Part shown: piece after piece, positions 1 to 2,000 of the stretch | Layout of the letters: the number at the start of each line of letters is the position of its first letter | How positions within the stretch are numbered: position 1 is the stretch's first letter | Source: Runella sp. | GTDB taxonomy: Bacteria > Bacteroidota > Bacteroidia > Cytophagales > Spirosomataceae | Length of the DNA: 64,000 nt | Assembly (NCBI GenBank): GCA_023254175.1 | Contig: JALQYJ010000020.1 | Span: forward strand, 1 to 64,000 | Direction: 5' to 3' | The notes under the pieces: model-generated | The model's input: the letters and a program-made list of their open reading frames with translations, nothing else | Told to the model about the DNA's origin: nothing | The model's database searches: none | Program-made: the position numbers and the translations under genes

Positions 1-1125
<1,125 letters not shown>

Positions 1126-1292
1126 TAAATATCTAAAAATTGACTTTCGTCTAATTGTACTGTACGCGTCCTGTCGTTTTTGTTATTTTCTCACCATTCT
1201 GTCAAAGAACTCTTGCTTAAGTCGCTCTTAAGCATCGTGTTAACTTAATATCTGTTAACTCTCTTTCTTATCTCTCTCTCAGTTTTGGGTTG

Positions 1293-1533
1293 CAAAGGTC
1301 TGACTTTCTTTTCTAATTTCCAAAAAAATTTAAAACTTTTTTTTCAATCTCTTTTCTCGTCAAACTCTCAATTCCCACATCCCATCGTTTGGGGTTGCAA
1401 AACTCTTACTTTTTATTTTAATATCCAAAATTATTTTTTGATTTTTTTTAATTCTCAAAATTTTATTTGGACTTTCTTGCCCTCCCTCGTCGTTTGGGAG
1501 TGCAAAAGTCCCCCTTTTTCCCACAATTTCCAA
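1293..1533 (-). promoter_or_regulatory. Three tandem rRNA promoter-like units (TTG-N20-GAnnTTTGCA) spaced 105 bp apart
   Basis: -7-like caaaggtc 1293-1300, caaaactc 1398-1405, caaaagtc 1503-1510; each has caa (TTG on minus) exactly 20 nt further upstream (1321, 1426, 1531). Confidence 0.7.
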
Positions 1534-2000
1534 CTGTTCTGTGAAAAAAAATATAAAATATTTCGCAATTAACTGATAACCACATTCTTATAACTATAAA
1601 AAAATACCCGACTCCTCCGCAAAATATCGCAAAACGTGCTCCCGTATGAACGTTTGATTCATTTATTGCCCTTTGAGTATTTCAAAGGTTCTCAAAATTA
1701 TACTACTTATTCTCAAATAAGGTTTATTTAAGTTGTGGTGAAGTATTGTCCGTCATCAAGTCACAGGATTTTCTAGCAGATAATAAGTTTTATATATTTG
1801 ATTTATTGACATACGGTTAAACTTTTTATCAATAGTTTAGAACAAGCAAAACCTTTTGATATACGTATGTAGCAGGCAACGTTGTGGATTGAAATATCTT
1901 TACTCTAATGGGGTGCAAGTCGAATACGCACCATGTTGCGACCCATATTTAGGGCTATTAGTTAACTTAACTTGGATAAGGGTCTAACTATTAGACTCCT

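Follow-up and report, generated by a model that had tools for sequence, protein, structure and literature searches.

The window, a 64-kb stretch of a Runella genome, begins with part of an rRNA operon on the minus strand. It contains the 5′ part of the 16S rRNA gene, the leader of the operon and, upstream of these, three promoter-like units that read toward 16S. The same-genus sequences used for comparison match contigs of R. aurantiaca, R. limosa, R. defluvii and R. zeae. The features are given below by their positions in the window.

1..1126, minus strand: 5′ part of the 16S rRNA gene, ending at the contig edge (Rfam RF00177, 1073 bits)
1127..1288, minus strand: rRNA leader, 3′ of the proximal promoter, from the sequence; its probable extent is set by the predicted start
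1201..1210, minus strand: GTTCTTTGAC within the leader, which we take to be a boxA-like element
1291..1323, minus strand: candidate promoter unit 1 (proximal), with TTGG at 1320-1323, a 19-nt spacer and the -7 box GACCTTTG at 1293-1300
1325..1348, minus strand: A/T tract of unit 1, at -37 to -60, a putative UP-like element conserved in the orthologous operons of R. limosa and R. defluvii
1396..1428, minus strand: candidate promoter unit 2, with TTGG at 1425-1428 and the -7 box GAGTTTTG at 1398-1405
1430..1453, minus strand: A/T tract of unit 2, from the sequence and comparison with orthologues
1501..1533, minus strand: candidate promoter unit 3 (distal), with TTGG at 1530-1533 and the -7 box GACTTTTG at 1503-1510
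1535..1558, minus strand: A/T tract of unit 3, from the sequence and comparison with orthologues

Within the 64-kb window, TTGG-N19-GANNTTTGCA was found at only three places, those of the three units, against an average of 0.01 copies in dinucleotide shuffles. The periods between the units are exactly 105 and 105 bp. A first-pass annotation of this DNA had described the motif, its coordinates (the TTGG elements and the GANNTTTG boxes, at the positions listed) and the 105-bp period, and all of these proved exact on re-reading. Further upstream of the operon, at 1999-2140 on the plus strand, lies a short, disrupted open reading frame similar to the beginning of a transposase OrfA; a hand-joined 47-aa guess at this frame gave no Pfam match.

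The Bacteroidota promoter consensus is TTTG / TANNTTTG, in which the -7 element spans -12 to -5 and the start lies 4-5 nt beyond it (PMC6847099), and T at -12 is nearly invariant (PMC6847099; see also PMC9723704 and PMC7366714). In the window, the -33 box is TTTGG in units 1 and 2 and GTTGG, with the first T missing, in unit 3, which also has a G-rich spacer. All three units carry the A-11 and the TTTG at -8 to -5 of primary-sigma promoters, and all three have G at -12. Because the T-12 of these promoters is absent, we file the window units as a variant that would work like Bacteroidota primary-sigma promoters, and not as standard members. The 4-5 nt rule of PMC6847099 places the predicted start of unit 1 at about 1287-1288, and those of units 2 and 3 are predicted at about 1392-1393 and 1497-1498. 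The three candidate units lie in series on the 16S strand within about 500 bp. The earlier suggestion of rRNA promoters is supported by the sequence: the units look like tandem promoters of the Bacteroidota primary-sigma type, which would drive the rRNA operon. No study of Bacteroidota rRNA promoters was found in the literature searched, whose coverage did not extend to subscription papers.

Similarity between the units reaches beyond the boxes. Units 1 and 2 match at 76% over 70 nt, and the boxes of the units sit inside a 44-nt repeat of 73-77% identity; the first-pass description of the inter-unit sequence as diverged needs correcting in this respect. Sister operons also contain units that are tandem duplicates, with identities of 100% over 116 nt, 87-93% over 112 nt and 94% over 77 nt, and similarity over 112-116 nt spans 76-100%. 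Equal successive spacings were seen in three operons: 105/105 in the window, 112/112 in R. limosa and 116/116 in R. aurantiaca. In the R. limosa and R. aurantiaca operons the units are nearly identical tandem copies, and the equal period therefore follows from duplication. Sequence comparison thus points to tandem promoters for the rRNA operon made by duplication of one module, a reading to which we give a probability of about 0.82.

Selection on exact 105-bp phasing had also been proposed, and a comparison of spacing in related genomes had been named beforehand as the test that could refute it. Spacing in the relatives is variable. Adjacent spacings in Runella range from 100 to 121 bp, falling into two groups, 100-106 and 111-121, and leaving 107-110 empty, and the two closest orthologous operons have 104/106 where the window has 105/105. 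Other orthologue sets drift too (112/111 against 115/111 and 115/112), by 1-3 nt, and among pairs in the class up to 160 bp apart the spacing is 81-157 bp in all but one. Exact 105-bp phasing as proposed is not supported by the Runella range, the 104/106 orthologues and the spread in the class.

In a helically phased array, 105 bp would have been selected to hold the three promoters on one helix face, where polymerases or a shared DNA-bending protein would cooperate. This idea draws on the equivalence of 105 bp to 10 helical turns and on the two groups of Runella spacings, which lie about one turn apart. A Rayleigh test at 10.5 bp on 17 Runella orthologue-group means gave p ~0.014, a hint only, as the group means and the list of other genera were assembled by hand, several periods were tried and p is uncorrected. 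The other genera of the family gave R 0.54 but are not independent, and an independent class sample gave p 0.09. When each distinct Runella spacing was entered once, however, p was 0.33; the class pairs range widely, with a best period nearer 11 than 10.5, and clustering is expected from the descent of a few duplicated modules. Together with the drift of 1-3 nt between orthologues, this makes a helically phased array improbable, and a weak preference for whole turns is at most weakly hinted at.

Seventeen Runella rrn operons were read in a survey of the genus. Tandem promoters, two to four in number, lie directly before 16S in 17/17, and in every one the 16S-proximal promoter has a GA box and a TTG-to-TTTG distance of 27. 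Overall, G-12 was found in 35 of 49 Runella rRNA promoters, and the number of GA units varies from 1 to 3 among operons. A distal T-12 promoter, with a TTG-to-TTTG distance of 26-28, is present within the scanned stretch in 14 of the 17 operons and just outside it in a fifteenth (L014). All three units are of the GA kind, with T-12 units absent from the scanned stretch, in the window operon and its orthologues from R. defluvii and R. limosa; the CACTCCC tail of unit 3 is that of most distal T-12 promoters in the other Runella operons. The genome contains a second rrn operon (G000:C11), whose three units are spaced at 112 and 111 bp and of which the distal one is T-12. The 16S fragment at G000:C11:1-64 (L003) differs from the window 16S (88% over 121 nt, in the first variable region), which reflects either an assembly chimera or real heterogeneity between operons.

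Conservation was assessed by aligning the orthologous operon from three species. Identical columns made up 93% of the -33 box, 96% of the -7 box and 79% of the spacer. The A/T-rich stretch before each -33 box was better conserved than the transcribed side, with 71% column identity over -37 to -60 and 50% over +11 to +26. Such a pattern is expected of functional promoters that have A/T elements upstream. The retention of the -33 and -7 boxes of all three units, next to flanks that have diverged, argues against the units being leftovers of duplication of which only the proximal one matters, as does the recurrence of tandem promoters across the class. Such leftovers would accord with the tandem duplicates of many operons and the varying number of GA units, and a single proximal promoter would suffice, yet we hold this explanation to be unlikely.

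Upstream regions from across the class Bacteroidia were searched with a promoter caller that required TTG and A-11 and left -12 free, so that T-12 was not built in. Promoters were called in 48/53 regions, the caller not being exhaustive (5/53 were without a call), and 30/53 had two or three. Of the 85 called promoters, 82 had T at -12, 2 had G and 1 had C. Tandem -33/-7 promoters before 16S are thus usual across Bacteroidia, and G-12 is not ordinary there; the 82/85 count rules it out as a phylum-wide rRNA mark.

We also searched for G-12 promoters elsewhere in this genome. TTTG-N19..21-ANNTTTGCA gave 50 matches, and at the widest gap the -12 base was T in 13, G in 5, C in 5 and A in 3. Four of the five G-12 matches at this gap belong to rrn operons and the fifth to rplC, with no others, and the T-12 matches precede various genes and tRNAs. 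The looser TTGG-N19-GANNTTTGCA has nine exact-spacing matches, seven of them at rrn or rplC; the remaining two are at C100:87402, before an open reading frame, and at C143:1835, probably coding. The identities of L3 and L4 were confirmed. The L3 operon of this genome may have tandem promoters as well: its rplC promoter is preceded, at a distance of 217 bp, by a second GACCTTTGCA promoter (L157, G000:C151:47500-52500). Several tRNA genes of the genome (L294, L298, L241, L285 and L239) have the same -33/-7 architecture, with C-12 at tRNA-Phe and T-12 at the others. G-12 as a general mark of ribosomal-protein genes is ruled out by the candidates of this genome, which are T-12 at rplM, rpsH and rpmG and C-12 at rpmB, the names rplM, rpsH and rpmG being our own reading of the sequences.

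A search of 84,980 genomes with TTTGG-N19-GANNTTTGCAACCC returned 69 stretches. Fifteen are Runella contigs before 16S, at least one of which (L167) stops short of the gene, and 22, almost all labelled Bacteroidales or Bacteroidetes, lie before rpmB (L28), identified by profile in one case and by eye in the rest. One stretch precedes rpsP and one tRNA-Arg. The other ~30 are near the ~30 that we estimate would be expected by chance from length alone. In the 22 genomes (L172, L197, L203 and 19 other loci) the GATATTTGCAACCC promoter is 28-45 nt before rpmB and has the spacing of the Runella rRNA units; a phylum-wide survey of rpmB gave mixed boxes and no clear rule. The -7 box beginning with GA, which had been put forward as a possible rRNA-specific variant, is real and concentrated at rRNA genes, but it is shared with Runella rplC and Bacteroidales rpmB.

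At rplC, G-12 was present in 7/7 Runella sequences checked, and the promoter distance of 27 is kept across most genera of the family. The -12 base is G in Runella, g2, g6, g10, g13, g18, g20, g24, g29 and g30 and T elsewhere, close genera included, as in g15, g23, g26, g3 and g5; in the family rplC survey no promoter box of this kind was found in g12 and g27. On a partly unresolved tree of L3 and L4, at least four changes at -12 of rplC are needed. A non-T base at some rRNA promoter was found in 7/7 genera with G-12 at rplC, against 2/11 with T-12 (Fisher p 0.002 over 18 genera, with -12 states read by eye). Co-evolution of rrn and rplC at -12 is nevertheless not established, because, once shared ancestry is allowed for, the tree has two well-supported independent pairs. 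Thirty primary sigma proteins, drawn from genera of both -12 types, showed no difference in the region 2.3-2.4 stretch, and a changed sigma behind G-12 was rejected on this ground. From these distributions we read G-12 as a lineage-specific promoter variant common to ribosome-synthesis operons.

It is also unlikely that the GA units serve an alternative sigma, or bind a regulator as its operators, with only a canonical TA promoter elsewhere driving the operon: G-12 does depart from a position that PMC6847099 gives as nearly invariant, and most Runella operons do have a distal T-12 promoter, but the window operon and its orthologues have only GA units in the scanned stretch, each unit otherwise agrees with primary-sigma promoters, and between genera T and G replace one another at the same rplC element with the rest kept.

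In the favoured reading, the three units would be tandem promoters for the rRNA operon, read by the Bacteroidota primary sigma through TTTG at about -33 and NANNTTTG at -12 to -5. A single promoter module of ~105 bp would have been duplicated in tandem to give three units at equal spacing, each predicted to start transcription ~4-5 nt past TTTG by the rule of PMC6847099. The A/T tract upstream of each unit probably contacts the RNA polymerase alpha subunits, as an UP element does, and the outputs of the units would add, together raising the rate of polymerase loading onto the operon. Two of the three units could instead be inactive copies, and some might be weak or decaying, G-12 being a departure from a nearly invariant position.

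In the proximal promoters of Runella, T at -12 would have changed to G at a constant spacing of 27 nt between the first bases of TTG and TTTG, and likewise in the main ribosomal-protein operon, that of rplC, with the sigma factor unchanged. G-12 may weaken a contact with sigma, so that open-complex formation becomes the limiting step at these strong promoters and their output responds to growth-rate signals. This regulatory reading is tentative, drawing on the distribution of G-12 with few independent cases. An equally speculative generalization is that a class of primary-sigma promoters set aside for ribosome synthesis is marked by G (or C) at -12, that rRNA and ribosomal-protein operons switch together in evolution, and that G-12 was gained more than once (in Runella, in other lineages of the family and at Bacteroidales rpmB), promoter-encoded growth-rate control replacing the E. 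coli discriminator.

The general promoter consensus of Bacteroidota has been published, but the control of rRNA output in the phylum is poorly described. If the proposal is true, a single-base class mark at -12, common to the rRNA and L3 operons and read by an unchanged sigma, would provide a simple entry to growth-rate control in these bacteria. The window units resemble the promoters of the Bacteroidota primary sigma (sigma-ABfr) in the TTTG at -33, A-11, the TTTG at -8 to -5, the A/T-rich flanks and the position before genes, and differ from them in having G, not T, at -12. Their TTG-to-TTTG distance is 27, whereas 26 is more frequent among the rRNA promoters of the class. They share TTGG-N19-GANNTTTGCA at equal spacing with the promoters of Runella rplC and Bacteroidales rpmB, neither of which is associated with 16S; rplC has one conserved unit, apart from the second one upstream in this genome, and rpmB has one. 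In E. coli, rrn operons have tandem P1 and P2 promoters before 16S, with A/T-rich upstream elements. The Runella arrangement is similar in placing several promoters in series before 16S, with A/T-rich elements upstream, but it follows another sigma consensus and consists of near-identical duplicates where E. coli has two unlike promoters.
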